In this document: piece by piece, positions 1 through 39,807 of the stretch
Numbering within the stretch: the first letter of the stretch is position 1
Layout: each line of letters begins with the position of its first letter
Assembly (NCBI GenBank): GCA_018902385.1
Contig: JABSSW010000056.1
Span: 1 to 64,000 of the forward strand
Origin: Physcia stellaris
Taxonomy: Eukaryota; Ascomycota; Lecanoromycetes; Caliciales; Physciaceae
DNA: 64,000 nucleotides
Direction: 5' to 3'
The notes under the pieces: generated by a model
Database searches by the model: none
Seen by the model: only the letters and a program-made list of their open reading frames with translations
Told to the model about the DNA's origin: nothing
Translations under genes and position numbers: made by a program

Positions 1-3000
1 AACGTAAATTATATAATTCAATTTTCGAATCGAATTAAAATCGTTTACGTTAATATTTATTTCTAATTTTAAAACAATGCGAATAAATTGTAAAACGCAA
101 AAATCGATGTTCATTTAAACAAACAAAATATTTGAAACGAATTCAAATTTTTTTGAAAAACGATATCGAACGAGCAATTACGTTGCAACAATTTTTTTTT
201 AAAAAATATCGTAAACACAAACAAAATTTTAATCAATTCGTTAAAAATTACAACGTTAAACGAATGAATATGTTTGTTGAATTGAAATTCGAATTCAAAT
301 TCACGAATGTCGTAAAACTTAACGATTTTCGTGACAAATTTCGTATAAAATTTCGTTGCATATTTTTTTAAAAAAATCTTTACGAAAATCGAATTATTTG
401 AACGACTCAAACGTATAAAAAATAGTCAAATTCTGAAAAAAAAAACTCAGAAATTTCAAAAAACGTAAAATTTCGTTCGATATTGACAATTTTGAAAATG
501 AAAACGAAAAATTCAAAAATGCGAAATTCAAAAATAAAAAAATAAAAAATACTAACAAAATCAATTCGAATCACGAATCAATCAAATCGAAAAATATTCG
601 AATGTATCGTTGATTTGTTTGCGAATTCAAGAAAATTCAAAACAAAAATAATTATATCGAATGTGATAAATGAAATTATCAAATTGAAATTTGCACAAAA
701 AAAATTATTTTCGTTGATTAAATTTTGAACAATCAAAAAATTAATCGATTTGATAATTTCGTTCAAATCGTTAAAAAAATTTCGAATTTCGATTTCGATA
801 CGTCGTTTTTTTTTAAACATGAACAAAAATCATGTTGACAAAAAAACGACGCAAAAATTCAAAAAAGTTTATAATTCGTAAATACGTTAAAATCAAAATT
901 AACATACAAAACGAAAATCAAATTTGAAACGAATCGAAAACAATATTCGATACAAAAACGAAAATTAATTTGATAAATCATGTTTATGCGAAAAAATTCG
1001 ATTTTCGTCGTTTCGAAATTTTGAATTGTGATACAATAACAATTGACAATCGTTGTTTGAAAACGTATGACGTTTATTTGATACAATTCGAAATGTCAAA
1101 CGTCAAAAAAATTAATCGTTTTTTCGAAAAATCGTTTTGATCGTGAATTTGAATTGATATTTAACGTTAAACATGTTTTGAATACAATTTTCGAAAATCA
1201 AAATGAATTGAAACTATAACAATATCAAAATTTGACGTTGCAAAAAAAAAAACATTTCATTTTTATCACGAATCGTATCGAAAACATCGAATCAAAACAA
1301 TTGACAAAAAACGTCATCGATAACGAAATTGAAACGTATTTCATGTTCGTACAAATGTATATTGACAAACAATTCGACATGCATAAAATGCACGTTTCAA
1401 AACGAATTCAAATAAAATTTGTTTTGACGAAAATGAAAAAAAAAAACTCGATATCAAAATTACGTTTTTCGATATTTTGAAAACATACGAAAAACTTAAT
1501 AACGAAAATAAAATTTACGAATTATCGAATCATAATTCAAACGATCATGTTATTGATTTAAAAAAAACAAAAAATCGTTTCATAAATCAATTTATTTCTT
1601 ATTCGAAAATGAATTTCGAATATTGTATGTTTATATCGAAAAACATTTAATCAACGATTTCATTCGATTTTCACAATTTTTGCAAAAACGTTTATTTTGT
1701 TCGTTAAAAAAACGATAATTTACGATTTGTGTAAATTACAAAAATCTCAATATTTTCACGATGAAAAATAAATATTTTCTTTCGTTAATCGATAAAAATT
1801 TAAATAAATTTAACAAAATCGTCAAATATATCAATATCGATTTGATTGTTGTTTATCATCGATTGCGTATCAAACATGAAAACGAATGAAAAACAATTTT
1901 TCGTATTCGATATAATCATTTCGAATACAACGTAATTTTTTCGATTTTATTAACGTTTCGACGACGTTTCAAAATTTCATCAATCGAATTTTGACGATTC
2001 GTTTCGATATTAACGTCATAATATATTTGAACGATATAATAATTTATTCGATAAACGTCGAAATTTATGTCGACGATGTCAAATGAATTTTTGATCGTTT
2101 TAAAAAAAATAAATTATATATTGTTTTTGAAAAATGCAAATGATTCGTTGACGAAATAATTTTTTCAATTCGTTATTTCATTTCAAAAAATACGAATGCA
2201 AAACAAAAAAATCGAAATTATTCAACAATGATTTGTATTTCGTAACGTTTTCGACATTTTGCAATTTTTCGATATCGTTAATTTTTATCGACGATTCATT
2301 AAATATTTCAATAAAATTGTTAAATTTTTAATCGTTGTGTAAAAAAAATTGCAAAATTTACGAAAAAATATTCTCAAACGCAAACGAAATCGAAATCGCA
2401 ACAAATTGTCGAATATTTATATTTTTTTGATCAATAAAACGTTGAAAATTTTCAAACGATTTCGCAAAACATTTATCGAAATATCAATTTTACGTCATTT
2501 CGATTTCGAACGTGTTATTCGAATCGAAATCGACGCATTCGACAAAATTATCAAAATCATTTTATGTTAACAAAACGACGAAAATTATTGACATTTTGTT
2601 GCGTATTTTTCGCGCAAAATGATTTCGATCGAATGCTATTACGAAATTTATAACAAAAAATTGTTGATTATTGTGATTTCGTTCAAACAATGAAAACATT
2701 ATTTCGAAAACGCAAAAAAACAAATTTTTGTTTTTATTGATTATCGCAATTTGAAACAATTTATAATTACAATTAAATTGTCGTTACGTCAAATTCGATA
2801 AATTCAAAAATTGAATCGATATAATTTTTTAATCGATTATCGTTTCGATAACAAAAATTTTGTTAACGAATTTTCAAAACGATTTAATCACATGATAATT
2901 ATTGAAAAAAACGTCGAAAACAATCGTTAAATTTTGAAACAATTGCAAAAATCATTGATTGCAAATTCGAAACGTTTCGAAAAAAATGAAAAAATGTGAT

Positions 3001-5100
3001 CAAAATCATGAATGCGATGCATATCATGAAACGATTTATAAATGCGATACATAACATAAAACGTCGATCGTATTTAAATAATTCAAAAAATATCAAATCA
3101 ATCAACGTTATTTCAAAAACATTTGATTTAAAAAATTCAAAACGAAATCGAATTTCAATCAACGTTGTTTCGAAAACATTCGATTCAAAAAATTCAAAAA
3201 ATTCGAAATATTCGATTGAATAAAAACTAAACGTGATATTTATAAAATGAAAATTTTTGTGTTAAAATCAACAATTGTATTTAAATGCGCAATGCATAAA
3301 ATTCGAATATAAATTGTTTTACGAAAAAAAAACGACATATAACGACGAATCAACATTTTCATTGTTGAATTTCGTTCGAAATTTGATCGATAAAAATCAA
3401 TTCGTTTTTGAAATATGTCGAAAATTAATTATTTCGAAAACAAAAACAAATCATTGACAATACAAAAATGAATTTTTGTATTACGACGACGTCGTTTACA
3501 TTTCAAAAATTTGCGTAAAAACGTTATTCGTGTCAATCACGATAATTCGTTCGTTGATCATTTCGACATCGAACGAACGTTAAAATTGATACGTCGAAAA
3601 TATTATTGATCGAATCAAAATTTTATCGAAATTTTTGAAATGCGACAACAAATCAAAAAATATTGTGAAATATACGTCGTTTGCAAACGAAACAAAATTT
3701 CACGACACAAATCATACGACGAATTTTTTTTTTTTTTTCGATTTTTGAATTTAAATGAATTGATTTTTTATGAATTTCGTGACAAAACTTTTTCAAATAA
3801 AACATGAAATGAAACGATTTACGATTCGATTTTAATGATTGATGAATCGTTTAACGAAAAATTTATTACATTTACATATTGAAAAAATCATGAATGATTA
3901 TCATTTTATTGTTTTGAATTTCGTTTAAAACAGATTTTCGTCAAAATTAATTTCAACAAAAACATTAATTTTGTTTTCGTCAAATTATATCAATTGAATT
4001 TTGCGCAACATTCGTGAAACACATTTGCGAAACTGTATTTCAACATCAATAATTAAAACGATTTTCGCAAAAAATTGAATCGAAATTATTTCGCGAAATT
4101 ATTCGATTTTACGATTTTTTTCGTCAATCGTTATCGACAAAAATTTCATTTTACGTTCAAATACAACGATGCATTGTGTTACGTTTTGAAAATCAAACGT
4201 AAATTGTCAATCGTTTTTATTTTCAAATCGATGAACAAATCGAACGAATAAACAACGTCATAAAACAATTTTTTTCGCGTTTTCGTCAATTTCGAACAAA
4301 ATGATTGAATAAAATTGTTGTTCATAATCGAATTCGTTTACAACAACAACAAACGCATTCACAAACATTTTTTCGTTCGAAATCATGTTTGAATATTCGT
4401 TTCGCATGTTTTCGAAAAAACATGAAACAAAAAAATTAAATTCAAATTCGCAAAAAAACACGTTGAACATTTAATTGAATTATTTCGAATATTGAAAAAC
4501 AATTTATTCGTGACACAACAACAACAAACAATGTGTAAAAACGAACGCACAAAATCAATGTCATATAACGTCGAAAATTACGTGAATTTGAACGATAAAA
4601 ACATAAAAATTAAACGAAACAAAAAATTGAAATGAAAATTTTTCGAATCATTTCAAAATTTTTAAAATTATAAAAAATTAAATTTATCGTTTAGATTTAT
4701 TCAAACGTTGACACATTCACGACGTTTTTCGTTTTTTTTTTAAAAAATTCAATTTAAAAAAAAAAAAACGCGCAAACGTTACAATTTTTTGAATTTTCGT
4801 ATCAAATTGAAAATATCAAATTCGACGAAAACATGAAAATGAAAATCACGAAAAATTTTATGAAATCGAAATCATTAAAAACAACAAACTTTTCAAAACA
4901 ATTGAAATTTTAAACAAATTTTACAACGAATTCGATTTTTACTATTTGATAAAATGAAAAAATTATGAAAACGCGATTTGAAAATTTGCATCGTTTGTCA
5001 AACATTTTCGAAAAATTTTGCGACAATTTTACAACGAAAATTCAAAAAAATTTGATATTAATAAAAAAACAAATCATCGAAAATCACGAAAAAAATGAAT
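1..5100 (+). mobile_element. Ty3/gypsy retrotransposon fossil (chromodomain type), left end outside window or not visible
   Basis: Despite heavy mutation, a plus-strand pol order can be followed. The reverse transcriptase region is at about 1,560-2,330 (recognisable YHR-RI and FEY segments near 1,850-1,940). An integrase zinc-binding region is at about 3,530-3,720 (H..H..CxxC). The integrase core is at about 3,780-4,450 and a chromodomain-like segment at about 4,880-5,060. The first 1.2 kb may hold gag, but I cannot recognise it. The element is broken many times over and looks old, since the mutation load is near saturation. A copia-type LTR lies inside the integrase region. No LTRs of its own were found. 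Confidence 0.75.
3877..4045. repeat. Copia-type LTR fragment nested in the Ty3 fossil
   Basis: This segment matches the 198-bp LTRs at 30,683-30,880 and 33,730-33,927, starting TATTGAA and ending TTTCAACA, but is shorter (169 bp) because of internal loss. Ty3 integrase-like sequence continues on both sides, so it is probably a solo LTR inserted into the older element. No matching target-site duplication is visible. It carries the same CpY-type changes as the LTR at 33,730. Confidence 0.65.
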
Positions 5101-7854
5101 TAAAATATTTATTACATGTTAACACATTTTCGTTTTTAAAAATTTTGTGTATTATTTTTGTTTAAAATTTACGAGTCGTACGACACATAAAAAAATTGAA
5201 TCGTGTCAAAAACATTTTCGAAAATTGTTGTTCGATTTAATCGAACGATAAATCGTTGAATAAAAAATGTAAAATGAAATAATAAAAAAAATTTCGAAAT
5301 TTGAATATCAAATACGATCGCGATTAATTAACGTTTATCGCGTTTATATTTTTTGTCATAATATCGATATTGATATTCGAAATAAAAAAATAAAAAAATA
5401 AAAAAATGTTCGAATTCAAAATTTTTTGTCAACAAATCAATTGTCAATCATCATATCGAAAATTGTAAATTGTACGAAATCAAACATTCGATCATGAAAA
5501 TAGCAAACAATTGATTAAATCAAATTATTTTTTTTCGAAATATTCAAAAAAATGTTTTTTTAAATTTTTAACGCAAATTGATTATCGAATTCGAAACAAA
5601 ATATTTCGAAATGCAAAAATCATAATTATAATAATTTTTTAAATCGATGCAAAAACAAAACAAACAAAACACGTTAAAACAAACAAAATACGTCAAAATT
5701 GTTATTAACATGTTGATTTCAAAAAATTTCAATGTTAAAAAAACGTATGTAAAAAATAAAAATTTCAAATTTTCGAAAATGCGATTCGTATTTCGTTAAA
5801 CAATTCGATTATCGACATTCGAATAATTTCGAAAAAATTAATTTCAATTATTTTACAATTCGATCAACGATAAATTCAACAAATTTATATTTTCAATCGA
5901 AATCGATCGAATTCGTACGATTGAATAAATAAAATGTAAATAAAAAACAATTGTAAAACGTAATTTGTTTTGTAACGATTAATAAATTAATGTATTACAT
6001 TTCAAATTATACATTTTTGATGTCAATAATTTATTAAATTATATTATTTCTAATACGAGTTTTACATCTCAGAAGTTTTTAGATTGAATACAAGTTTGTT
6101 CGTGAATTTTTTCAAAAAAATTTCGTTCAGAACTTCAAAGTTAGAACTAAATCTGATAAGATTGCGAAGTAGTGCAGACTGTTCAACTTTGCAGTCGAAT
6201 AACATTTGCACTCAGTCTCCAAAACATACAAATGAAGATTCGTTTTGAAATTCTAAATGAGATCTATTCAATGATTCAATAACATCGAGAATCGATTGTG
6301 TGCGCATTGAGTTATGATGAAAGCGATGACGAGACATTGCAAACAGCAAAATCGAATTCTGAAAAAATTTGAAGCTAAATCGCATTGAGCAAGAGTGTCG
6401 CAAAGTCAATTTTTCGCAAATTCGAAAATTTCAATGTTTGATTTTTGAATTGCAAAATTGCAATCATTTGAACATATTTTCGAAACATAACATGATTTCG
6501 AATCGAATTTGATGCGATGAATTTGACAAACACGTGATATTTGAATTGCAAACACGAAATATTTGAATTACAAACACGCATTTGATTTGAAACAATGTTT
6601 TGTATAATTATTTTCATTCATTAATAAAATCATATAGATAAACGTGAAAGTTTCGTTGAATATCGTCGTACAAAGTTTTCTTTTCTAAATCAAATTTACA
6701 ATATTTGACAATTTTCTTTCGTAACATTTTTCGCATCATGATTTCGTCGTTGATTCGAATCGTTGTGATCAAAAAAAAATAAATCATCGATTCAATTACA
6801 ACAAAAAAATTGTTTCGATTCTTTCAATCTCGATATCTCGTAATTCAAACAGAAATAGCAACTTGATAAAACGATTTGATTCATTCAACATCGTTGCAAT
6901 GTTTATTTTTAAAATCGATTTTGAATAATGTCAATCGAAAACGTTGCGAGTTGTTCATTTCTTTTTTGTATTTGTTGAATATTTTGAAAATTTCGATTTG
7001 TTTCACGTTTCATCAATATACAAATATTTGACGTTTTCAAGTTTGTTGTTTTTGATTTTGTTTTTGTTGAAACACGATTTGAATTTTGACGTTTTCGTTG
7101 ATTGTGTTCTCAAAAACGACATCGAATAAAAAACGACAAAAGATAACAAAATTTTGAATTCGAAAATGTATACAATCGATTTCGAATCAAATCATATCGT
7201 TCAAATCGTTGACGATATAATGAGATTTTCGAAATTGAACGAATGATTGTTCATTGATTTGAAATGAATGACAAAATCGAGAAAAAATGCATATATTTTC
7301 GATATCAAAAACTGAAAATTTTGAATTGAATTGTTGTTGTTGTTGAGCAATGAATTGATTTTGAACGAACAATTGTCGAAATTGTCGATGTTTTTTTTGT
7401 TTTTTTCGTTTTTTTTGTTCTCGTAATGTCGTTTGACGTTCTTTTGCAATGATAAACAAATCGAAATTCAAAATAAATTACATGATGAATGTGAAATGCT
7501 TGAAATAATGTTTCGAAAATGAACGTGTTTTGAATAATGAATTCGAAATTGATTTCTCGACAACAATTTCGCGTGTAAAATTATTTGTTCATTTCATAAT
7601 TATTGCGATAATGAATCGATTTTGTTTTTATTGCAACGTTGAATTGCGCTCGTTTTGCTTTACAATTTAAATTAAATAATCAAAAATCATATGTGATTGT
7701 TGATTGATGTGCAAATTGCGAAATATTGCATGAACGCAATAGTCGAATTTTGATGTTCGTGATTTGAATTTTGAAAATTTTGTGCTTTTTAATCAAATTA
7801 ACGTCAAAATTGAAAAGAAAACGCAAAATATTTTATTATAGAAAAATTTTATGA
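5100..7854. other. Unclassified mutated DNA without a recognisable gene
   Basis: 5,100-6,050 is saturated with the CpY-type change and gives no recognisable protein. 6,050-6,620 is less mutated and keeps several AG, CT and CC dinucleotides, but shows no gene. 6,620-7,854 is strongly mutated again; short ORFs there (for example a Gln-rich one at 7,187-7,471 on the minus strand) match nothing I can name. It may hold a further decayed element. Confidence 0.5.
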
Positions 7855-7930
7855 AATAGATTGTTTCGAAATAAAATTTATTCGAAAATTGTGCATTTCA
7901 CGCTAGAAAATAATTCTTGTATTGAGTTAA
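7855..7930. repeat. Terminal piece of repeat D
   Basis: About 75 bp ending ATTGAGTTAA match the right-hand end of the 0.8-kb repeat at 35,440-36,224 and 46,012-46,505. The rest of the repeat is not evident to the left. It abuts the presumed start of the LINE. Confidence 0.6.
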
Positions 7931-8829
7931 CGTGTGTGAGTTCATCGCGATGCATATTTTAGACAATAACAGTTCTAACTTTAAGAATTTTATCTATCAA
8001 TTTCGACGCGTAAATTTATTAAATCAATATCAAAAAAACACATTTTATGTCACAAATCGAATTTTTGAAATAATTCAACAACGAAACGTGATATTGACTC
8101 AATTGACGCGTCATTTGAATTGTTTATTTTTGCGCATCAATCAATGCGTAATTGAATATGATGAAAAAAACGTCATGATCGCAACTGAATCAAAAAAATC
8201 AAAACATCAACGAGCAAAATATTTTGCTTTTTGTGAATATTCGAAAATGCATTAAACGCATAAAAGATAAAAAAAAATCGTCACAAAAATCGTTCAAAAA
8301 TGATTTCAAACATTCGTAATTTATTTTGAAAATTCACAATTTTCGACAATCAATGAAAAACTCGTTAAACGAATCGATTTCATGATCAGTCAATTTCATA
8401 AAAATCAAATCAAAATGAAAAAAAAACAACGTCGTCATTCGTCGCGACATTACAGAATTGATTATTTCATTCAAATTTTTTTTTCGCGAATAAAATGAAT
8501 TTTCGTAATTGAACAATCGTCGTCGTTGCGTCGTCAACATCACGAATTACGATCAACAAAAATACGAAAATCGTTGTTCGTTTCAACGACGCGAACAAGA
8601 AACAACAATTGAACAAATACGAAACGAAACGCATAGTCAAAAACATCAACGTCTGTATTGAAAAAAAAAACATACAAATTAAACATATTCGTGCGATCAA
8701 AAAATTTTTCAGCGAAAATTTTACGATACACGCGATAAACGCAAAAAAATTGAAAAATTGAAAAACAACAATACGTGAACGACAATTCTCGACAAAAAAA
8801 CAAAAACGATTGTTCAAATTCACGCGATT

Positions 8830-9734
8830 ATGATGAACGAAATGAAAATTAAAAAATTCAATCTAACGACGATCGAAAAAAGAAAAACGACGATACGTAA
8901 AATCAAAAAAAAAAAACGAAAACGTGAAAAAATTAAAAAAAATGAAAATTTTGTACGTGTTTTGAAAAAACAAATTCACGACAAAACAATTGTATCATAT
9001 CATGATCATCGAAATTATCATTTCGAAAATGAAAAACGCGATGTTAAATAACAACATTATGATTGACGAAAAATTGAAAATTTGTTCGATGTTTAACAAA
9101 ATTTGCAAAACGATTTAATGTTATAAATATTATTAACACGAACACATTACAATTCAATGCACGAAAAAAAAAATGCGATTATTGCGCAAAAACGCATGTT
9201 ACAAAAAAAAAATGTGTACAAAATTACAAAATCAAATGTTGTGTGTGCGAAAAAGCACACAATTCATGAAAAAAAAAATGCAAAAAAAAACAAAAAAAAA
9301 TTGAACGTATCAAATATTAATTCTCGATCACGTCGACGAAATTTTCGAAACAAAAACAACAATATATCGTCGTCAACAAAACGATAACGAAATCAATGAA
9401 CACGTTCGATAACAATTCAAAATCGATGATAAAAACAAAAAAATTCAATCAATTGAAAAATATACAACGACGAAAAATCGAAAAAATTCAAACGAAAAAA
9501 ACATTATTCGACGAAATCAACAAACGCAAAAAAACAAACATTTATGCATCAACAATATCAATGATTCAATCGATTGAAACATTGATATCATCACAAATTT
9601 CATCGATTTCGCAAAGATTTCGAAATAAACAAAACGACAAATCGACGTCATCGATTAAAAGCAAAAAATCGTCAACGATCAAAAAAAAAAATCGAGAAAT
9701 CAAAAAAAGAAAACAGCTTTTTCATCACGATTAA
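8830..9734 (+). pseudogene. LINE ORF1 remnant with CCHC-like zinc knuckles
   Basis: A lysine/arginine-rich region precedes a cysteine-rich stretch at about 9,150-9,310 that reads CDYC...H...C followed by CCVCEKAH and a later C, matching the paired knuckles of Tad1-clade ORF1 proteins. In the family this is an RNA-binding protein. It is followed by a basic, Ser/Thr-rich tail. The N-terminal part, perhaps starting near 7,932, cannot be fixed. Stops and loss of Pro and Gly codons make it non-functional. Confidence 0.65.
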
Positions 9735-9784
9735 TCGAACATTTTTAAAAAACGTTACGAACAAACATACGAAATTCAACTCAT

Positions 9785-12700
9785 CGAAAAATGTTAAAAA
9801 ACGATACATTGTCGATATTACAATACAACGTCAACAATTCGAAAATTCAGATTATGATATCGTTGTTCGAAACGAAAAACATCGCAAAATACGACGTTTT
9901 GATCATTCAAAAATTTTGAAAAAATTCATTTCAATTCACGACAAATAACAAACTTTCGCAACATTTTGAATTTTTGTACATGTTAAATGCGATTACGAAA
10001 ATATGTTTGTTCGTCAACAAAAAATAACGAAAACGATTTACATTCACACGTTTCACAACAAAAATTTGATTTCGTTGAAAATGCAAACAAACGACGAACA
10101 ACAAAATTATCAACATTCACAAACATGTACAATTAAATGCAAAAAAAACGAAAACAACAATACGTTATTTGATTTCAAAAAGACGTTGCAAAAGAAAAAA
10201 AAAAAACACATCGTTGTAAAAATTTCAATTTACATCATTTCAATTGAAACGAACAACATGTGAAAACAAACGTCGACGCATATGAATTCATCGTTACAAT
10301 AAAAAAATACAAATTGAAAAAATCACATCAATCGAATTGATCATTTGAAACAAACACAAAAACGAAAACACAATTGATTTCACATACACGACGTCGTTAT
10401 TCAAAAACAACATTATCGAAACGAGCATCGACAAAAAAATGAACAATCATTCGAATCATCGTTCGATCAAGACGATATTGAATTTACGAACGAGAACGAT
10501 CGAAGCAAAACGCACAAAAATTTGAAAAAAAACGAACGTAAACGTTTTTCGAAAGAAATTACAAATCAAAATAACGAACAATGAAACGTTTTCGTCATCG
10601 AAAAAAATATTTAACAATCGAACAAACGAAATCGATAAACAAATAAAGAAATTGATGAAAACAATTCAAAAAATCATCGAAATATTCATTTCGCTCAACA
10701 AATCGAACGTATATTCGAAATCGAAATTTATTGAAAAATGCAAACAAATTTCGAAAACGACAAAGACGATCAAGAAAAATATCAACGCAAAAACGAAATC
10801 GAAAAATTGTGAATATCATACAAAAAAATCAAAAATCATTTGAATCGCGTCGTCGTCAAAATCATGAAAATACAATACAAAAAAAAATCGAAAAGAAGTG
10901 CAATATATCAAATAATATGTAAAAAATTTGCAAATGAGCAAAAAACAAAATCTCGAAAAAATTTGCATGTCAATTTTACACGATCATTTATTCATGTTAT
11001 CAAAAACGAATTCAGTCAAAAAAACAATCATATTTTTGAAAAAGTTTTTTCGTCGTCGTCAACGATAATTTTAACGAATATACAGAAAACTACATACAAT
11101 CAAAATTTGAAATTGAAAAACATACAATTTCACGAAATAATCAAAATTATTGCGATACAAATTTTCAACAAAATTTTAAAACACGACGACATTATCAACA
11201 AAATATTGAAATGAATCAACGACATTATAACATTTCATTTACAACGCATATTTAACGTTAATCTGAACACAAAATATTGTTTTGAACATTTTCGTAAATC
11301 GATTACAATCGCATTGCGCAAATCAAACAAAAAAACGTATTCATTTGCATTTTCATATCGATCGATAATTTTGTTGAATACAATAAATAAAATCATGAAA
11401 TTCATATTGATCAAACGTATTAATTATTTGACGAAAACGTACAATTTGTTGTCGCGTACGCATTTTGAAATAAAAAAAACACATTCATAAAACACGTTTT
11501 GCATTACATGATGAAACGCATACATTCGATTTGAAATAAAAAAAAAAAAAATAATCGTGATCATGTTGTTGAACGTAATGAGAACATTCGACAACATAAC
11601 ACGACAAAAATTATTGCACAATTTGAAAATGAAACGACTCGACGAAAAATTGATGCAATTCATTGATTTCTTTTTAAACAACAAAATGACGATATTAAAA
11701 ACAAAAAAATACGATATCGAATGATTGAAAATCTTTGTAAATATTTCACAAAATTTATTCATGTCATCGATTTTATTTCTTTTTACAACGCATCACTATT
11801 GAAAAATTGAAACGAAAAGATGTTTTTGCGAACGATTTCGTCGATGACGTGAAATTGATAAACGAAAATCAAATCATTGAAAAAAACAACGAGAAAATAA
11901 TTAAAACACACGAGAAAATTTGCGTATCGTGAACATTGAAACACGAAATGAAATTCGCATCGTTCAAATATCAATTCATTTATTTCAATTGAAAAAAAAA
12001 ACACAAACGTTATCGAATTTATACGATTGTTCGAATTCAATCAAGTGATAAAAGCGAAAAAAAAAATGAAATATTTAAAAATTATTATAAACACGAAATT
12101 CAATTGAAAAACGCACGTGAATCAGAACAAAACGAAAATATTGAAATCGATAAAAACATTACGAAATTTCAACGATACAACATGAAATGCAAAATTATCA
12201 CGAATGAAACAAATGATGCACGCGATTTTCATTTTACAATTCACATACGCATGTTCGATGTGATACACGTCGACAAAAAAAAATCATTTTAAAAAATAAT
12301 CAAAAATTTGACGAACGTGCAATATCAAATCGAAAAATTATAACAAAAACATACAAAGCAACGTCGAAAAAATGTTCAACATCGAAATCAGTTTAATGTC
12401 AATGTATTTGCGATTGAACAAATTCATCAACGTGACGACAATAAAATTGATCACAAATTCGACGTACGAAACGATTATAAAAAATCGTTTCATCAAAAAA
12501 ATCAAAATGCGTTAATTTATTGAAAAAGTTAATGAATAAATTCGAGCGCAATACGAACATCAAAACAAAAAATATAAAAAAAATAATTTCATTCGCGACG
12601 TCGTCATGATGAACATCATCGCGCGTACGTATCAATAAAAACAAAAAAAAATCGAAAAAATCACAAAAAACAATTCGATTCGTATTCAATCAATTACATT

Positions 12701-13640
12701 TACATCGACGAAAATGACATCAACGATAAAATAAAAATCGTAACGATTTCGTCAAAAACGAATTCAACAACGTCAATAACATATTTGAAATTTATAACGT
12801 TATACACAATGTATTCGACGAAATTGTACGAAATCATTTTGACAAAAATCATGAAATTACATTCGTTTATCGAAAGAAAAAAAAAATCGAAATTTGTCAT
12901 TTGCATCGATAATCAGACAACGATATTTGCGATTTACAATTCGAAAATCAATTCGAATCAATATTTGATGAAATGAATAATATGATTGATTGACGATTTA
13001 CGACGTCAAAACATCGAAATGAAATTGCATTGAATATCGATTCACGTTGACATCGAAAACAATGAAAAAACGAACGTTGCAATCAAACAAATCACGAAAT
13101 GAAAATTGAAAAATCAAAAAAATAAACGAAAAAAAATGAATACGAATCAAACTGTTTCGCAAACACAATTGATGAAAATGTTGAAAAACGCGATTAAAAT
13201 CATTGTGAACAAGAAAATGCAACATCGATGAATTAACGAATGAAAAAACTGCGATAAAAACAAAACGTTATATTCGATAATAACGAAATCGAACAAATCG
13301 ATATTGAAATTACACGACAAATTCAACAAAAAATTCAACGCAATTGCAATACAATTTCGAACGATCAAAATTGATTTGAAAACGTTTTTGTACAATAAAA
13401 AAACAATCGAAAATTTTTCGTGTTCGTGCAAACGTGACAAACAAACGATCAAACATGTGTTTTTCGAATGCAACAAATTGAAAAAATTTCGAAAAAAATT
13501 TTGAATCGACGAAATTCGAAAAACAAAATGAAAAAAATTGAAATTGACGAACGTGTTGATCAATTCGATCAATTTGAAAAAAACGACAATGTTAATAAAA
13601 AAATCAAAATTCATTGATTATTTAAAAATCTCATTCGAAA
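9785..13640 (+). pseudogene. LINE ORF2 remnant (APE endonuclease, RT, RNase H, Zn cluster)
   Basis: Domains appear in the expected order. The endonuclease start is near 9,793-10,030 (LQYNV then CLFVNKK). The reverse transcriptase runs from about 11,100 to 12,050, with the FVDD catalytic box at 11,837-11,848. RNase H is near 12,900-13,090 (DNQ). The C-terminal C-x-C...H...C cluster is at about 13,421-13,471. In the family this protein nicks the target and copies the element RNA. Many stops, several at positions where the family has Trp, show that it is dead. Confidence 0.8.
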
Positions 13641-13880
13641 ACGACGAAAAATAACGAATGCGAAAAAAATGCATTGAAATGAAAAGTTTCACACGAAAAA
13701 AAAATTAGAAAAAATCATGAAAATAATGATGTTTGAAATGATTTGTTCGAGCAAAAAAACAAAACATCAAAAAATAAAAAAGTTTGTATAGAGTCAAGAA
13801 TTTTTTAGAGATGATTGACTCGATTAATTTTAGTCGCATAACGAATTTCAGACGAAATCGATTCGAGTGCTTAATGAACT

Positions 13881-13904
13881 AATCAATCAATCAATCAATC
13901 AATC
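13881..13904 (+). repeat. (AATC)6 tract at the LINE 3' end
   Basis: Six perfect copies of AATC, directly after the mutated LINE 3' region and before ordinary-composition DNA. It marks the LINE terminus and the edge of the mutated block. Confidence 0.85.
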
Positions 13905-14007
13905 ACTAAATCAATATCCAGTTTTTTTTAGGTGAAGTCGGCGGGTCCCATGGACCACGAAAAAGCTTCCCTCGGTAGAAATCATAGTCCTATCTGGCCT
14001 TTACGAG

Positions 14008-15810
14008 ATGTCAATATTGCTTTTCAGGGATTTATACCCTATCTTAAAGAACGTGCTGGTGCAGCGTCCACTTCTAAGCTCCTTTGCTATCATAGCGCTC
14101 ACAGTTTACGCTCGATCTGCTTTTGCGAAGTTACGGGCCTATCAGGTATGTCGCAAACCGGAAAGCCCATTCGTTAAACTGACCGGATCACGATCGCAGA
14201 TTGACAAGGAAATCGGCCGTCGATACGGATGTTGCCCACCTCCAAGGCTCCGCAATGCCTGGCCATGGGGCATTGATCGCCTGGTGCAGATTTTTCAGGC
14301 AGATGCGAGCCACCGATTGATGGAACTCTTCCTGTTCCATTTCCAGGACGTAGGTTCAACTTTGGAGCAAAAGTTCCTGGGCACACCAGCCTTTGGTACC
14401 ATTGAGCCAAGAAATCTGGAAGCTATGCTGTCCTCGAACTTCGCTGGTAAAGCATGCTGTCAATGTCTTTCTTGTTGTTGATCAACAAGTGGTACAGATT
14501 TCGGGTATGGGTTGCGACGGCAAATATTCTTCCCCTTGTTAGGAGACGGAATCTTCACCCAGGATGGACCACCATGGAAGCACTCACGAGATCTCTTACG
14601 TCCCCAATTCTCGTACCAGCAATATCAAGATTTGGCTGTCTTCAAGGAACATGTGGACAATCTAATTGCCTGTCTGCCTGGGACTGGTGACCAAGTTGAT
14701 TTGCAACCACTGTTCTTTCGTTTTACGTTGGACACCACCTCTTCATTCTTATTCGGGGAGTCAACCTATACTTTAAAAGAGGGCCAATCTGTGTCTGGTT
14801 TAGAGTTCGCAAGGAGTTTCGACACTGCACAAGACTACGTTGTCAAACGATTCAGGCTCCTAGACCTATATTGGCTCATTGGAGGCTCCGAGTTCCGCCA
14901 GGCCTGCTCTATGGCGCATCAATTCATCGACAACATCATCAAGCGTCGGCAACGTAAGGAACTCTATTCCAACGACCGAAGTGGAAATTACGTTTTCTTT
15001 GACGCTGTCGCCAAGGATTCCACCAATGAAGAGGCATTGCGCGGCCAACTTTTGAATATCCTACTGGCTGGTCGAGATACGACGGCATGTCTGCTATCCT
15101 GGACATTCCATCTCTTGGCGCGACATCCCCGAGTCCTCCAACGGTTACGTGAGGAGATCAACAGCATGGGAAGTGTTGGAGTTGGCCCGGACATGTCGAG
15201 AGACGACATTAAACGCATGCCGTATCTCGCGAATGTTCTCAAAGAAAGTAAGCCTCATCTTCTTTCTAGTTAGCACACCGTCATGTAACCTTGTCTTCTA
15301 GCACTCCGTCTGTTCCCGTCTGTGCCAGTCAACACGCGTTCGGCAACAAGGACCACGATACTCCCCACTGGTGGTGGCCCTGATGGGCTGTCCCCCGTTC
15401 TCATCCGGAAAGGACAAAACGTTGCATACTGCATCTACGCAATGCACCGGCGGAAGGATCTATACGGAGACGATGCAGAGGAGTTTAGGCCAGAGAGATG
15501 GGACTCGAACGATCTGCCTCTAAAGAATCATACCGTTCATACGGCGTGGAGCTATCTGCCTTTCAACGGTGGCCCGCGCATCTGTCTTGGTCAAGATTTT
15601 GGCCTTATGGAAGCTTCATATGCCACTGTGCGTATCTTACAGACCTTCTCGAGGATCGAGGCCGGTGTTTTTGAAAGGCCTCAGATCCAATCTTGGCAAG
15701 GCTACTCCTCTCACTACACCAATGCTGTCAGTCGGATCTCGAAAGAGCGACAAAAGATGACTTTAGTGATGTCGCTAGGCGATGGCTGCCCTGTGAGGCT
15801 CTGGCGATAG
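14008..15810 (+). CDS. Cytochrome P450, CYP52-clan (fatty acid/alkane hydroxylase-like)
   Basis: Four exons (14,008-14,145; 14,200-14,446; 14,498-15,247; 15,302-15,810) with GT-AG introns of 54, 51 and 54 bp join into 547 codons, the usual size for the CYP52 group. An N-terminal hydrophobic segment suggests an ER anchor. Key motifs are intact: I-helix AGRDTT near residue 319, ETLR (ExxR) across the last splice at about 378-381, PERW near 441, and the haem loop [10 protein letters not shown] with its Cys near 473. [16 protein letters not shown] is typical of the CYP52 clan, which oxidises long-chain alkanes or fatty acids; the substrate here is inferred. The first intron is a multiple of three without stops, so its retention would add 18 residues. 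Only about 100 bp separate the ATG from the upstream LINE tail, so the native promoter may be lost or replaced. Confidence 0.93.
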
Positions 15811-19449: not shown

Positions 19450-21224
19450 GAATGAAAAATGCTTTCCGTATACTTAATCTGATCTCTTCGAGCACGCGAT
19501 AAATCATCGTTTGAGCTAGTAATTGCAAGGAAATAGGCGACTTCGAAGGCCATCCTGAAAAGGTGCATCAATCACGAACTTGATGATACTTGCAGACGAT
19601 ACCGTTGAAGGCGTTGCTCTGGATTGAGTGTACACTCAAACATCGTTAGACTGATGGACACAGAATCATGGATTAGAGATGAATCGGTGAGAACGATACA
19701 TCTATGTTCAGGTCGGTATGCGGTAAGGGTCTCTTGATGCAATTGCCGAAACATGTTGAATCGGACGTGTGTATTATCATGACCTCCCATAGTGCGCTTG
19801 TAAGTTCTCGCATGATGTCGTCTTTTGATTTGCTGCGGTGCTTTTGAATTGATGACCCTTTTCTGGTAATATCTTCGATTTTCATATAAGCGAGGTCGAT
19901 GCTAATCATGGCTTCGATATTGAGTCCCACAATTTTTCTTTCGGTTCAGGCGCCATTGAACTGCACTGTTTTGAAAATGGCAGCGATTGGCGATGGCTTC
20001 GGCTACTGCCATAGTGGTCAGGCTTGTTCCGCATCCTATAAGTCCGCCGGTCAGCACCGAACCCAGATAAGCAGACCGAAGCAGCGGGTTGCAGCAGAGG
20101 AAAACCCAAGCGACGCTCAGCGACTCAGCCAGAGATACAAGATGCACGCGATCGCGGCGCAGAGACAAGCGGACAAAGCCCAGACCAAAATCAGCAGATC
20201 AATCTCCACTGTGCCACGTTAGCTACCAGTATGCCCGGGATGCATAAAGTGCGTATCGATCACACGGCGACAATGGCGCGTGGGCGCAGCCACTGGCTCA
20301 AGAGGCACAGAATCAACCACCTCGACAGAATCAAGATATATCTCGATATTAGAGGTCGAGGCAAGCGATCGGGTAAATAGACCCGCCGTCAGCTCGTGGC
20401 CTAGCGTGAAGAAGTCGTAGCATGAGATGCGTGAGGAGCATATTTGATGCATGAAGCGGCCACGGTCGAAAAGATAAATGCGTGGTCGTCGCGCTCCATG
20501 GCTTGCGCTATTATGTGCCGATTTTTGGACGGGTGATACCGTCAGCGGGCAAATGAGGAAGTGAGCAATCGAAAAAAGCTGCATTCGTGGTGGTGGCTGT
20601 ATTCGTGGCGATGAGCATCTGTTCGCACCAATTAGCCAGAGATCGCTAAGATTTCAAGAGATTGAGAACAACAGCACTTACCTTGATGTCAAGGGTTGCG
20701 TGAGAAGCAGAAGTAAAGTTGGAACTGGTGTGAAGTGCCGAAAGAGTACTAAAAGGAAAAGGAGAGATCGACATCAGATGGCCTTTTGCCACAGGGTGTG
20801 CCGTTTAGCCATGCCTTTGAGTTCTGAACTTTGAGGTAGGGATTCGATAAGATTTGAGCTGCTTGAACTGCTGTGATGGCTTTGATTCGCCATCGTCTGA
20901 GCGAATTGAGTTTTCATGACATTACAATTGTTTATATCCTTCATATCATCGTACACCTCGTTCTTCGAAGTCTCTCATGTCCTTCTTGTACTCTTTCAAA
21001 ATCGACAAGTTATTATCATCATCGCAATCGGAGAAGATTTCACTGGAGGTGAAAAATACTGTAAAGATCTCAGATTTGTTCGATTTTGGAATTGTAGCCG
21101 AAGATGCGATCAACTTCTCGACTGCTATAATCCTGAAGCTCTGCTCATATTGTTATATTTGAAACTTTCCAATCAGGAATACATTGAGTCAAACCGAACA
21201 AAGAGATCATATTAAAATGAATTT
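19450..21224. other. Gene-poor interval with unrecognised minus-strand ORFs
   Basis: Short minus-strand ORFs (19,673-19,930; 19,902-20,168; 20,219-20,584) have no recognisable domain. One frame near 20,130-20,220 encodes a hydrophobic segment that could be a membrane helix. They might be exons of one decayed gene with 18,720-19,449, but I cannot build a consistent model. The interval ends where the repeated locus copy A begins. Confidence 0.35.
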
Positions 21225-21227
21225 ATA

Positions 21228-21747
21228 TAACATGATGATGATGTGTGAAAAATTGCTTGAAAAATCAATGAATTTGTTTTATAATACTGAGAAATAAAAA
21301 TTGTTAAATTTTTGATGATAATGAATCATCTCATTATTGATACATGTGAATAAATAAGTCTTTAATGATTTTTTCGAAAAAAACATAAAATAATCGTTTC
21401 GAAATCGATGTCGCTGCATACAGCTCAACTATTTAAGTGAAATCTTGAGAAATTACTGAACATATATCTTTTGAGATTTATGATTCTGTCGAAATGATAC
21501 TAATAATCGCTCAAACGAAAACAAAAAAATGATCGAAATATATTTCAATATCTGTTGTACGTTCGTTCAATTTTTATCTTCAATGAAAATCGCAATTTTC
21601 AAAATTTTATTTTTTAATGTCGTCGCTTTTTTTCGCAACTCGATTCAATATTTCTAATTCAATTTTCTGTATTTTCAATTTAAAGAAGTTGAAGTTCTTT
21701 CGTAATAATCAATGTTTTTTTTTGAAAATTTTATAAATTGCAAATAT
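21228..21747 (-). repeat. Mutated copy A of the locus at 36,222-36,690
   Basis: From the shared CATGATGATG start the sequence aligns with 36,225 onward through the TATAATACTGAGA and ATACAGCTCA-type segments. Where the partner has ordinary composition (after 36,425), this copy shows C-to-T and G-to-A changes mainly at CpY/RpG. It corresponds to the C-terminal part of the unrecognised minus-strand gene. The copy continues beyond the Ty3 insertion, from 29,108. Confidence 0.75.
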
Positions 21748-21752
21748 TTCTT

Positions 21753-22145
21753 TGTAATACGTTCGCGTTATCGAACAACTAACTCATACGTTAATTTTGA
21801 ATACGCGTCTGCGTAACGCAAATGCTTGACATTAATAATGAATGTAATTCAAATGTAACATAATTATAAACGCACGTCTAATAGAAACGTTATGAATTGA
21901 TGTCATAATCATGACGTTAATCAAAACGTCATAACTATTACGTCAAATACGAATATAAATAAATTGTTCATTTTTTTTTCTCGTTGAGTTTCAACGATTA
22001 GTTTTACATTTACAGTATTCATACGATGTTGATAATTAATAATTGAAATTTATTAAATTTCACGTTTTTCAATAATTAAATGCGCTATCGTAAAATTAAT
22101 ACATTATTGAAACATGCTTTACGTCAACGCGCTTAAATTTTTACA
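21753..22145 (+). repeat. 5' LTR of the Ty3 fossil
   Basis: 393 bp, starts TGTAATAC and ends TTTTTACA. Paired with 28,711-29,102 and preceded by the target duplication TTCTT. Confidence 0.93.
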
Positions 22146-25100
22146 ATTCTAATCGTTTCATCTTTCGAAAAAAAAAACTCGAAATTTATTAGCATCATGA
22201 CTGAATCAAATATCAACATTTCAGATTTTAAAATAGAAAATCTTGATGATATTTCAAATATTTCAAATAGTTTTATTTTTTCGAGTTGAAACGACGTGAA
22301 TCAAATTCAGCAAAACATTTTTATTATCGACAATGCAACGACGCAAAACATTTTGAAACAAATGACAATTGTTTTTCGAAAATTTAACGATGAAATCGTT
22401 CAATTGCGAATTCAAATTCGAACAAATCAAAATGCAACGCAATTCGTTATCGCATCGCAAACGCAATCAATATCAATTGTATTTATCGTTCATTTCAAGA
22501 AACGAAAATTCAAAAAACAATTTTTTTACAAAAACGAGAGTGAAAACGAACATATTCGTTGATTTCGCGAAATCGAATTCGAATTTCTGACGTGTTTTAA
22601 TTATTTTATGAATAATCGATCGAAAATTCTTTGATGCATGTCATCGTTGCGAAAAATTTTCAATTTCAATGATTCAATCGCATCGACAACGATAAAGATT
22701 TGAAAAATATTTTTTACGATTATTATAAGTTTTTTCTTTTGAATTTGATAGCAAATTCAGTGAATCGTCGATTCGTCGTTTACGAAAATTGAAAACGAAT
22801 TCGTCAACGTGCGAATCAAAAAATGTTTAATTTCAAAAATGAATTCGAGAAATACGAAACTCATTTGTCGTTTTTTGATGAAATTCATTCGATCAATTTT
22901 TTTTTTTGTAAATTATTGTCATCGTTGAAAAAAATTGTTAAATATCGAAAAAATATCGATGAATAAAAAAAATTTGTTTGCGAAAATCGTTATGTTGAAA
23001 AAAATTTTCGAACGCGAACGACGAACAAATTCGCGTATTCAAAATAATCAAAACATTTTCAAGCAAAAAAAAAAATAAAAACAAAATTAAAGAGCAATTT
23101 CAACAACAAAATTAGCAACAAAATCAATCGCAAAATCGTTTCAATCAAAACATTTTTCACGATTTTGAACGCAATACGCATGCGAAAAGCAAACGAAAAC
23201 GCAATGAAAATGATCAAAATACAAAATCAACGTGTTATCGATGTCATCGCAAAAATCATTATGCTTTCGATTGTAAAATTGATGTAAATAAATCGAATAA
23301 TCAACATATTATCGTTGTCGTCAACGTCACATTTGAGTCAAAAAAAAATCAAATTTCGCGAACGTTTCGCAAACGAAACAAAAAAAATCAATAGAAATTC
23401 GAAATTTTATCGTGATTCAAAGTTGAATCAAATTTTTGAAAAATGAACGATTTGTTCGCGCGTTCGTGAATTTTGAAATCAAAATCAATTTTATCAATCA
23501 AATTTTTGTCATTCAATGAAAAATGCAATCGATAAACGAAATCATTTTATCGTTATCGAATTTTTTGAATGAACAAAATCGTTATTGTTATGAAACGCAT
23601 GAATTCATTTACAACATAATAAATTCGTGAAATCAACATCGTCAATGCAAAATTTTGTTTTATGCAATTGACTATATTGAATCGAATTTTATTTTGAATA
23701 TGTTTATGTTGATTGTCGAAAACATATTAATGAATTCGACGAAAAACAATTGACGTTTCAAAATCAAATTCAAGAAATTTCAGATTGATACGTCTAGACA
23801 ATTTGTTAAAAACTTAAAAAATCACGAACAGATATTCGCGTTGATATGTGCAAAAATCGAAAAACAATCGAAAAAGCAAAAATTTAAAATTACGAAAATG
23901 TCAAAACAATTAAAGAATTTAAAAAGTCAATTTGACGACACTAAAACAGATATTTTATTCGAATTAAATAGAAGTGATCATGTTATTGATTTGAAAAAAA
24001 ACGAGAAATCGTCGTTCATGTCGCTGTATAATTTATCACAGAATGAACTAGCGAAACTTCGACGTTACATTGAAAATGTCTTGATCAAAAAATGAATTAA
24101 ACATTCAGTCTCTTTCGCTGACGCGTCGATACTTTTTGTATCGAAAAAAAATGAAAATTTTCGTTTTTGTGTGAATTATCGAAATTTGAATGCGATAATT
24201 ATTAAAAATCGTCATTCATTATTTTTAATCACAAAAACTTTGAATCGTTTTAGTGATGTCAAGAAATTCATCAAAATCGATTTGAAAAATGTTTATCATC
24301 GAATTCGCATCAAGCAAAACGACGAGTGAAAAACGACGTTTCGCACGCGATATGAGCATTTTGAATATCAAATCATGTTTTTTGAATTAATCAATGTTTC
24401 AACAATTTTTCAAATTTATATCAATAAGATTTTGCGAAAACTTGTCGACGTCATTTGTGTGATCTATTTGAACGATATTTTGATATATAACAACGATTCA
24501 GCGCAACATTGACGACATGTGCGTTTTGTGTTCGAGCGATTGAAACAATACGAACTGTATGTCAATTTAAAAAATGCGAATTTGTTATCGATCAAATCGA
24601 ATTTTTAAATTTCATTGTGTTCATTGAAAATGTACAAATGAATTCAAAAAAAATTCGAATCATTGAGAAATGATCGCAATTTAAAAACAATCGCGAACTA
24701 CAAATGTTTTTAAATTTCGTCAATTATTATCGTCGTTTTATTCATGATTATTCAAAATTGATTGCATCATTTATTGATTTGTTGAAAAACAATAAACAAA
24801 ACAAAAAATCTGAATTTTTTGTTTGAAAAAAAAAATCGAAATTGACGTTTCGTCGATTGCGCGATATTTTTACATCGATTTTCATTTTTCATCATTATGA
24901 TTCAGTCAAAAAAATCAAAATGAAAATCGATGTTTCGAATTTCGAAATTTCAAATATTTTTAATCAATTTGATGAACAAAATCATTGACGTTCGATCGCG
25001 TTCTGATCGCGAAAAATGATATCGACAAAAATGAATTACGAAATTCATGATCAAAAACTACTAATTATAATTATGATTTTTCAACAATGACGACATTATT

Positions 25101-28100
25101 TCGAAAACGTTGCGCACGCGATAAAAATGTGATTTGATCACAATAATTTAAAAAAATTCATGAAACAAAAAAATTTAATTCAAAACAAATCAAATGAATT
25201 TTTAAATTAATTGTTTATGATTTCGAAATTTTTCATCGTGCAAACAAAATCAAATCGACAAATGAATTATCGAAACGTTCAAATTACGAAAAGACGTCGT
25301 CATTCAATATCAAGTTTTTGTTCACGTTGCAAAATAAATTTGCGTTATCGTCAAAAAGCGAATCGATTTTGAAAATCAAAATTTTGTTTCGAATATCGCA
25401 ACAAATATTCAATTATTCAAAAACAATACGCGTGCGAAAAACAAACGCGAAATATTAAAAAATTTAAATTCATTGTTTCAGTTAACTGATGTACAAATTG
25501 TCATTTTTAAAAAAAAAAAATACGAAATTTATCTGAGAAATTTTATGAAAAATCGCAAAAATCGATGAAATTTTTGATTAAAAAATTTCAGATTATCGAC
25601 AAAACGATTAAAAAATTTGTCGAAAAAAACAAAGAATCATTTCGTCGTCGACGCAACAAATTTTATTGAAAAATGAATTTCGAAAATTTTTTTAAATTCA
25701 AAAATCGTTTTTATGTATTTGAAAATGCAGCAATAAAAAAAAAATTCATAAACAAAAATCACGATGATTCATTGACAAAACATTTTGATGTTGATAAAAT
25801 TGTGAATTTAATTCAACGAAAATTTTATTGATTCGTTTGCGCGAAACAAATTCGTTCATATGTCAAAATTTGCGACATATGTCAACGTATCAAAATTCAT
25901 CGACATAAATTTTATGAAAAATTCAAATTCTTATTTGTTTCGAATATTTCGTGAAAAAAAATCATCATGAATTTTATTATCGATTTGTCTTTTAGCAAAC
26001 GTCGCGATGTCGTTTATGATTCGATTTTAATGATAGTGAATCGATGCATCAAAATGATCAAATACATTTCGATTACGATCAAAATCGATGTCGTTGCGTT
26101 GACGAAAATTTTTTATAAAAAAATTGTTTTTCGATTTGACGTCTCGAATGATATAATAAATGACAAAAATTTTGTTTTCACGAATGTTTTTGATTTTCGA
26201 TGTGTTATCACGCACGCATTAAACGACGATTAAACATTGTTTTTCATTTTCAAACGAATGATTTAATCGAACGTCAAAATCAGATTTTTGAAACGTATTT
26301 GCGTACATTCGTCGACGCGAAACAAACGAAATAAACAAATATGTTTTCAATGATTGAATTTGTTTATAATAATGTTATTCATTTTTTTACAAATGTTTCG
26401 TTTTTTTATTTAATGTATGATTATCATTCAGAAATTCACTATGTGATCGAGAACGATTTCAAAAAAAAAAAAATATTCATTGCAAAAAATAAAATAAAGC
26501 ACTTGCATGAAATAAAAAAACGTTGATAAAACGTTTTGAATTCGTTGTCGCAACGCAAACGAAATATTACAATCAAAATCATGAATCAAAAAAATTCAAT
26601 GTGAATGATTTAATAATGTTCAATATCAAAAATTTTAAACAACGACGTTTTAACAAAAAAATGTCGCACAAATTTGTTGAATTTTTTCGTATGAAAAATA
26701 AAATCGATACGCAAACGTATCGTTTTATTTTATTCAATATTTATCGCATTCATAATACTTTTCATGTTTCGTTATTGAAAAATTATTATCATAAAGCAAA
26801 CGATAAACACGCGAAACAATTTATGCAAATTTCAAAATTCATTGATAATAAAAAACAATGAAAAATTGAAAAAAATTTTGATAAAATAAATGACAAAAAA
26901 AATATTTGATACAAAATCAAGTGATTTGATTGAAATTCGAAATATAATCAATGATTACATGAAAATGAATTCAAAAATGTTTCAAATTTGATGAAAAAAT
27001 ACAATAAACGCGCGTCGCGCAAACGCAAACGACGTCATTGATCAATTCAAAATAATTTATTTTGTTTCAATGTCAGCAATGATTTGATTTTTTCGTTTTA
27101 TCGTCTAAAACGATAAAGACGATGAAATCGTTCAACATCAACATATGATCACGAACAAAAAAAAATAAACAAACGTCAAACGTCAAACAAAGAAAATTTA
27201 TGAACAAAAAAGAAATCGTTTATTTATCGCATATTCATTCTGAATCGAAATCAAAATCGTTCGAAACGAACGAATCGAAATTCAACGAATTCGAAAAATT
27301 CGAAATGTTCGAAAAATTCGTTTTATCGAAATTCACTTCGTTGATCGAAGTCGCAAAAAGAATTTTTTCGAGATTTTCGATTTTTGAATTATCATTTTCT
27401 GAACGAGAATCTTGTATTCAATCAATGCAAAAAATAAAATAAAAAATGTTTCGTTTGTTTATCGTCAATTGCGCATTTTTTTCATCAAAAAATTTATCAA
27501 CTTTTCATTCATTTTTTCAATTTTTCATTTTTTTCGTCAATTTCATTTTTTTCGCTTTTTTTTTTTCAATTTCATTCAGCAAATCAATGATTTGTTTTTT
27601 CGTTTTCGTCAATCGTTCGTCAAGTTGATTCGTCAAAATCGTGACACGATTGATCGTTGATTGTGCGCGATTTGCGATAATCGAAATGTATTCATGATTG
27701 CGACGTCATTATTTCAAATCGACAATCGCATTTTTTTCGTTTTTCGATGCGAACGAAAATGAATTGATCGCGACGTTCGATTTTTGCGAACTCGCGCACG
27801 ATTTTTTCATTTGCTTTCGAAATCGTTTTGAAAATTGTAATTTGTTAACGTTGTCGCATCGCGTGCGCAATCAAATACATATCGAATGACAAAAATTTGA
27901 ATCGTGATATTGAAAACGACATTTTTCGTAAATTTTCAAAATATCACGAACGCACGCATGACGATCAAAACACGTCATACATGCGAAATTTTCGCAAATT
28001 ATGACAAATTAATTTGTTGTTGTTGTTTGCGTTCGTGACGCGTGCGTTTCAAAATATTTACGTCGATTTTTTGAAAATCGATCATAATTGAAAGTAAATA

Positions 28101-29102: not shown

Positions 29103-29107
29103 TTCTT

Positions 29108-30610: not shown

Positions 30611-30682
30611 ATGATTTCAAGACAGATGAAATGTTTGAAACAATATATAGTTTAATGAAAAATGACGATATATTGTCAAAAT

Positions 30683-33927: not shown

Positions 33928-33932
33928 AAAAT

Positions 33933-35435: not shown

Positions 35436-35439
35436 GACG

Positions 35440-39800: not shown

Positions 39801-39807
39801 TAACATT

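Follow-up and report, generated by a model that had tools for sequence, protein, structure and literature searches.

Cytosine-to-thymine mutation aimed at cytosines before pyrimidines in AT-rich transposon blocks of a Physcia stellaris contig

Which process removes cytosines standing before a pyrimidine (CpY) from kilobases of fungal DNA while sparing those before a purine (CpR)? The question is raised by a stretch of 64,000 nucleotides of Physcia stellaris (contig JABSSW010000056.1, positions 1–64,000; hereafter the window), where AT-rich blocks with CpY depletion sum to about 34 kb. The initial annotation had stated that in 1–6050 the base after C is nearly always A or G and the base before G nearly always T or C, and our counts confirm this: read on the forward strand, the segment contains 0 CC, 0 GG, 20 CT and 9 AG, next to 359 CA, 270 TG, 374 CG and 63 GC, at a GC content of 23.3%. 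The observed/expected ratios were 0.00 for CC and GG, 0.08 for CT and 0.03 for AG, compared with 1.12 for CA, 1.21 for TG and 4.60 for CG. Chance as the cause of this depletion was ruled out by 2,000 mononucleotide shuffles of the segment, which gave a mean of 164 and a minimum of 128 CC plus GG versus 0 observed, and a mean of 699 and a minimum of 631 CpY on both strands versus 29 observed.

Per-kilobase counts extended this picture to the other AT-rich blocks, where CC and GG lie at or near zero and CT and AG are lowered to differing degrees, with normal values in the GC-normal parts. Successive CC/GG sites delimit intervals at 1–6219, 6219–13918, 21194–30752, 33403–36426 and 39093–41982, and CC/GG-free tracts reach 6.2, 7.7 and 9.6 kb. 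Based on dinucleotide counts and CC/GG sites, we delineated a CpY-saturated block devoid of CC and GG (1–6218) and, from density and CC/GG sites, a CpY-mutated block lacking both between its end sites (6219–13918). A third block (21194–30752), carrying a Gypsy remnant, spans 9.56 kb between successive CC/GG sites, a CpY-mutated tract without CC or GG between its end sites occupies 33403–36426, and 39093–46464 is a block of partial mutation that contains a Copia remnant. In the last of these, CpC and CpT at 39430–46000 amount to 1.7% and 38%, respectively, of the density in the normal-GC flank (48001–64000), which served as reference for all densities.

AT-richness is not the cause of the depletion, because both low-GC controls keep CC and CT. 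After context-free C-to-T thinning of the flank to 22.8% GC, the observed/expected ratios were 0.86 for CC and 1.07 for CT, and a real low-GC control, Pelagibacter phage HTVC010P (30,000 bp, 32.5% GC; one sequence), yielded 0.80 and 1.19. We further simulated saturated C-to-T mutation by 3′ neighbour on both strands of the flank for all 15 neighbour sets. The best fit was the CpY rule, with a dinucleotide distance of 41 per 1000 and a predicted GC content of 23.7% versus the observed 23.3%; the distances of other rules were 109 for CpT alone, 160 for C/G/T, 163 for G/T, 291 for CpC alone and 389 for CpA alone. CpA-type mutation, CpG decay and mixed contexts were thus rejected by this comparison. 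Per kilobase, the CpY simulation gave 67 CA, 52 CG, 0 CC, 0 CT, 47 TA, 205 TT, 14 GC and 63 TC, and the strand-averaged observed values were 52, 62, 0, 2, 68, 202, 10 and 62, the misfit consisting of a somewhat lower CpA and a higher TpA than in the model. For the Copia block (39430–46000), a single pass parameterised with the survival rates of the block itself (CpC 0.98, CpT 0.62) resulted in observed/expected ratios of 0.03 for CC, 2.37 for CG, 0.55 for CT, 0.54 for AG, 1.27 for CA and 0.38 for TA at 29.5% GC; the actual values are 0.03, 2.39, 0.46, 0.56, 1.43 and 0.41 at 31.5% GC.

The target context could be read from homologous copies within the window. Self-alignment gave 21 distinct matches, and the top 11 by score were used for context counts. 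In the reference pair, a near-unmutated copy of 47% GC (37648–38139, forward strand) aligns to a mutated homologue of 28% GC (29634–30121, forward strand). Going from the former to the latter, CpC had changed at 36 of 45 sites and CpT at 45 of 58, versus 10 of 63 for CpA and 8 of 44 for CpG, equivalent to 81/103 CpY and 18/107 CpR sites (Fisher P = 4.7e-20), whereas the reverse direction showed 0/0 CpC, 3/17 CpT, 5/62 CpA and 5/44 CpG changes. CpA, the preferred target in canonical RIP (repeat-induced point mutation), is therefore not preferred here, as its maintained density also indicates. Pooling the 11 pairs with each aligned site counted once, which sets aside 81 conserved cytosines with mixed neighbours, resulted in 63/67 CpC, 196/261 CpT, 104/448 CpA and 95/350 CpG sites changed. 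Counting both directions, with conserved sites entering twice, gave 63/75, 196/337, 107/866 and 95/671, and a transition-neutral alignment, likewise in both directions, 62/74, 183/330, 105/864 and 94/668. The CpC changes were distributed as 23 on the forward and 40 on the reverse strand, the CpT changes as 115 and 81; together with the absence of both CC and GG, this establishes C:G to T:A transitions on both strands, as in RIP.

No strong preference was detected for the 5′ or the +2 base, with CpT changed at 68/110 sites after A, 12/23 after C, 31/64 after G and 85/140 after T. In the three pairs in which one partner is of normal GC or less mutated, CCR sites had changed at the first C in 31 of 36 cases and at the second C in 4 of 33, showing that the 3′ base decides the target; at CCY sites the corresponding values were 26/32 and 21/31. 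The CCR test also rejected a 5′-neighbour model converting CC to CT. The proposal of the initial annotation that the process is aimed at C before a pyrimidine and spares CpA and CpG hence holds in composition, in the one-rule simulation and in the homologous pairs. Two outcomes that it had named as refuting were not encountered within the window: CpA is kept and not as low as the depleted CpT, and the C-to-T changes in repeat alignments do not fall mostly at CpA.

Relative to the flank, densities in six blocks were 0–1.7% for CpC, 3–38% for CpT, 78–105% for CpA and 89–124% for CpG. CpC was thus consumed first and CpT second, as CpC stands at 0–1.7% where CpT remains at 3–38%. The CpG loss expected under CpG methylation decay was not observed, CpG, with observed/expected ratios of 2.4–4.6 in four blocks, being among the best-preserved dinucleotides. 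We examined block edges in seven regions in 100-bp steps. Near 13.9, 36.4 and 39.1 kb, about 100 bp suffice for a roughly two- to threefold shift in CpY counts; the change spans 200–300 bp near 30.7 and 46.5 kb, and it proceeds stepwise across about 400 bp near 21 kb. A diffuse intermediate zone at 32.5–33.9 kb has nearly lost CC and retains about 7–14 CpY per 100 bp. On either side of the edges CpR (CA, TG, CG) mostly amounts to 14–23 per 100 bp. The edge at about 30.7–30.8 kb falls within the copy 30672–30880 of the pair with 33718–33927, and is therefore not simply the end of shared sequence.

To describe the tempo of change, we counted CpY transitions, other transitions and transversions in ten pairs, denoted by the starts of their copies. 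The pair 33718/30672, formed by the mutated copy 33718–33927 and the less-mutated copy 30672–30880 (both forward; 208 aligned bases), gave 26/1/2, and the pair 28711/21753, formed by the repeat copies 28711–29106 and 21753–22150 found by self-alignment (both forward; 396 bp, 92% identical), gave 21/6/1, with CpT changes running either way (15/24 in one direction and 6/15 in the other). The remaining pairs yielded 13/4/4 (45811/40150), 84/28/29 (37648/29634), 19/16/7 (46006/35728), 29/23/12 (36220/21228), 26/20/9 (40666/40452), 6/15/10 (39808/35440), 17/32/21 (39428/30225) and 14/53/59 (23959/1525). Change in the least diverged pairs is burst-like, which rests mainly on 33718/30672 and 28711/21753, and one mutated copy has lost CpC at 11 of 11 sites with 2 transversions in 208 bp. 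Pairs with few remaining CpY sites exhibit mostly ordinary change.

Within the window, the mutation is concentrated in transposons or repeats and genes are spared. Pfam matches identified a Gypsy reverse-transcriptase remnant at 24000–24640 (forward; RVT_1, E 1.9e-20), a Gypsy-type remnant at 26511–26858 (forward; SH3_Tf2-1, E 1.1e-9) and a Copia reverse-transcriptase remnant at 42044–42367 (reverse; RVT_2, E 4.8e-14). Normal composition was found for cytochrome P450 gene pieces at 14482–15807 (forward), in a normal-GC island with its edge at about 13.9 kb, for DHX29-like helicase gene pieces at 52733–55206 (reverse), which provide normal-GC control DNA, and for a GCN1 gene piece in the flank at 57132–60104 (forward; Gcn1_N, E 2.9e-100). 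A curated Pfam cut-off was passed by 2 of 10 pieces in one scan. By self-alignment, 1525–1993 matches the Gypsy block at 23959–24434 with 67% identity, and its frame has no Pfam match. Reading frames at 8–13.6 kb resemble a LINE (long interspersed nuclear element) by eye only, without a Pfam family match, and two of three read-through tiles, the LINE-like one included, gave no Pfam match. This LINE-like block shows a strong excess of A over T at 8001–13900 (AA 227–284, TT 84–131 per kb), probably reflecting a coding-strand bias of the element, and both CC and GG are absent from most of it. Three transposon frames contain 11 TGA, 6 TAA and 0 TAG stops; CpY mutation converts TGG to TGA and eliminates ApG. 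Two Copia pieces, of 197 and 108 codons, contain no stops, which is uninformative as the pieces were selected to be stop-free.

Nested repeats near the Copia remnant (35728–36222, 46006–46505, 39808–40105, 45811–46007 and 40150–40346) look, from their arrangement, like the long terminal repeats of at least two overlapping insertions. Adjoining the mutated block, the reverse strand of 46877–47784 carries a remnant whose helicase end resembles AAA_12 (E 0.005, short of the cut-off) and which, by eye, has a cysteine-rich stretch. GC-rich tandem repeats with 17-, 18-, 36- and 54-bp units lie inside normal-GC islands at 30991–31037 and 38156–38524 and show no CpY loss. A PDB search with the GCN1 piece, to an E-value limit of 0.001, gave one relative, chain 8i9x_LR (E 2.5e-197; molecule name 'Ribosomal protein L19'), from an entry that we take to be Chaetomium thermophilum. 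The window yielded no tRNAs and no Rfam matches at gathering scores. No relatives were confirmed for the GCN1 piece in the genome contig collection or for the helicase, Copia and Gypsy pieces in the viral contig collection, and a degenerate repeat pattern had no matches in either collection.

Established indices would overlook these blocks. RIP is commonly called at TpA/ApT > 0.89 and (CpA+TpG)/(ApC+GpT) < 1.03 (PMC4188875). The five AT-rich blocks tested gave TpA/ApT values of 0.38–0.50, compared with 0.72 in the flank, substrate indices of 1.18–1.46 and composite values of −0.67 to −1.04, so that all five lie on the 'no RIP' side and are scored RIP-free. In contrast, a CpY index defined as (CC+GG+CT+AG)/(TC+GA+TT+AA) was 0.009–0.125 in the five blocks versus 0.84 in the flank. 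The coding consequences also differ between the two targets. Simulated full CpY mutation of the GCN1 piece (990 codons) introduced 13 stops, all TGA, and kept 56% of the residues (44% altered), versus 52 stops and 74% kept (26% altered) for full CpA mutation; for the helicase piece (574 codons) the values were 6 stops and 58% kept (42% altered) versus 28 stops and 73% kept (27% altered). In these two window genes CpY mutation thus produced 4–5 times fewer stops and altered more residues, and in this model it would inactivate proteins mainly via missense changes.

We consider it probable that a filamentous fungus has its transposon graveyards in the AT-rich blocks, and that active, CpY-targeted C-to-T mutation has rewritten them as part of a RIP-like genome defence. 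The process acts on both strands, consuming CpC first to near exhaustion and CpT second, and leaves CpA and CpG close to or at their background level. Its most likely agent would be an enzyme of the DNMT1 superfamily (RID/Masc1 or DIM-2 branch) in which target recognition has moved from CpA to CpY, and which may proceed via methylation or direct deamination followed by fixation as T. The term 'RIP-like' in the initial annotation agrees with the mutation of both strands, the transposon targets, the adjoining GC-normal gene islands and the burst-like change observed in the window; it departs from the canonical CpA preference, and membership in RIP is not proven. A bolder proposal, which we regard as possible but doubtful, is a fungal lineage with a genome defence whose mutator reads C plus pyrimidine, possibly as an enzyme in its own right and not a RID with altered tuning, and destroys transposon proteins mainly by missense rather than stops. 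Since the detectors in common use rely on CpA depletion, other such lineages may have been scored RIP-free.

Several observations weigh against the RIP-like defence. CA plus TG in 1–6050 is at 0.78 of the flank density, compared with 0.91–1.05 in the other five blocks, and a slight CpA loss may have occurred there. The pairs contain changes at CpA (104/448) and CpG (95/350) sites as well, which we take as ordinary divergence, and other transitions exceed the CpY ones in three of the ten pairs and approach them in three more. Classical RIP mutates both copies of a duplication. Here, mutation can be one-sided, with 37648–38139 nearly untouched and its homologue 29634–30121 heavily mutated, and 30672–30880 is less mutated than its partner 33718–33927; such one-sided pairs could be short, diverged or late-arriving partners. 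On the side of the enzyme, no DNA methyltransferase was found among the 33 window pieces scanned, which cover part of the window.

The main rival, which we judge rather unlikely, is passive decay, in which CpY-specific (non-CG) methylation marks repeats and 5-methylcytosine deaminates slowly without a mutagenic burst. It would leave the same dinucleotides on both strands, the block stages (CpT survival from 3% to 38%) could then be ages, and DIM-2 methylates mainly non-CG sites with a CpT preference according to a 2026 review (PMC13297926). It is at odds with the least diverged pairs, two of the ten, in which CpY changes run far ahead of neutral ones (26 versus 1 + 2; 21 versus 6 + 1), and with the complete CpC loss at 2 transversions noted above. 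Ordinary CpA-directed RIP or CpG methylation decay, misread through AT-richness, is refuted for this window and retains practically no chance: AT-rich transposon blocks adjoining GC-normal genes are the usual appearance of RIP, and CpT changes can exceed CpA ones in RIP-affected repeat alignments (PMC2621366, PMC7882544), yet CpA and CpG remain at 0.78–1.05 and 0.89–1.24 of the flank density in six blocks, so that CpA is not simply exhausted. The simulation distances (389 for CpA versus 41 for CpY), the negative indices in all five blocks and the CC kept by the context-free and real low-GC controls point the same way.

A different mutator outside RID and DIM-2, either a deaminase acting on DNA cytosines or some other enzyme that prefers a 3′ pyrimidine, appears quite improbable. 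AID/APOBEC deaminases have 5′-base preferences. Mutation of both strands and the 3′-base dependence of the CCR test are unlike deaminases that act on one cDNA strand or read the 5′ base, a one-strand, cDNA-type deaminase being rejected by the changes on both strands, and no candidate enzyme was seen among the window pieces scanned. In favour of such a mutator, the preference differs from the CpA, CpT-plus-CpA and CpG signatures in the literature, and a 2025 phylogenomic screen found strong evidence of undescribed RIP mechanisms in ascomycete clades (PMC12543289). Startling as zero CC and GG across kilobases may be, an assembly, sequencing or chemical-conversion artefact is very improbable, as normal-GC genes of the same contig retain normal CC and CT, several edges are abrupt, transposon frames are still recognisable and graded states exist between blocks.

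The choice of target comes close to defining RIP; a clean, near-saturated CpY system would be a natural specificity swap, and comparing the target-recognition region of its RID or DIM-2 with CpA relatives could make the determination of the RIP target directly testable. The statement that no described fungal system has a CpY preference held in the literature searched, in which no CpY-only mutation system was found; published signatures with heavy CpT mutation exist, and the main earlier survey of contexts, Clutterbuck 2011, lay outside the search and could hold a precedent. A 2025 screen of 1,239 fungal species describes a shared CpA preference of RIP-like defences (PMC12543289). The term CpY was found in a single paper, where it denotes a less mutated class (PMC4188875), and a CpY-only target is absent from the available parts of PMC5555474, PMC10998396, PMC7979813 and PMC13297926.

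CpT-rich signatures are among the reports closest to a precedent. CpT together with CpA is reported for Magnaporthe oryzae, Botrytis cinerea and Sclerotinia sclerotiorum, and CpG for other fungi, in a source whose available part does not contain the term CpC (PMC4352252), and five CpT families of Colletotrichum truncatum have substrate indices of 0.08–0.12, that is, strong CpA loss as well (PMC6180176). Alignments of Neurospora crassa Tad1 and of S. nodorum repeats are CpT-dominant, CpT overshadowing CpA in Tad1, and the nearest exception is provided by short S. nodorum rDNA repeats with CpT changes in the absence of CpA changes, for which the authors presume no RIP (PMC2621366). CpT to TpT likewise dominates alignments of RIP-capable fungi (PMC7882544), and CpA is less preferred in M. 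haptotylum (PMC3828140). These CpT-plus-CpA systems share CpT as a major target with the window, but CpA is also a target in the same genomes, whereas in the window it persists and CpC is hit most strongly.

The RIP-like mutation of basidiomycetes at CpG or TpCpG (Microbotryum, Rhizoctonia solani; PMC4352252, PMC4014442) resembles the present case in being a C-to-T hypermutation whose target is other than CpA. Its stated target, CpG, is in this window one of the dinucleotides that survive best. A table for R. solani AG8 gives a higher density for CpC changes (one per 214 bp) than for CpG changes (one per 370 bp), although the authors stress CpG; moreover, the heterozygous SNPs of R. solani (single-nucleotide polymorphisms) extend over genes and repeats alike, in contrast to blocks with transposons and spared genes (PMC4014442). 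Methylation by DIM-2 of Neurospora shares the non-CG sites and the CpT preference, but acts in all CpN contexts, and the available part of the review describes no CpY-only mutation (PMC13297926). RIP of Neurospora crassa and many Pezizomycotina corresponds in its near-saturating C:G to T:A changes on both strands of transposon repeats, in AT-rich blocks beside GC-normal genes. It prefers CpA (PMC12543289, PMC2621366) and raises TpA/ApT; here CpA survives, CpC and CpT are lost, and TpA/ApT falls (0.38–0.50 versus 0.72 in the flank). On our best reading, the process works like RIP with another target, as a RIP-like system with a re-specified target.

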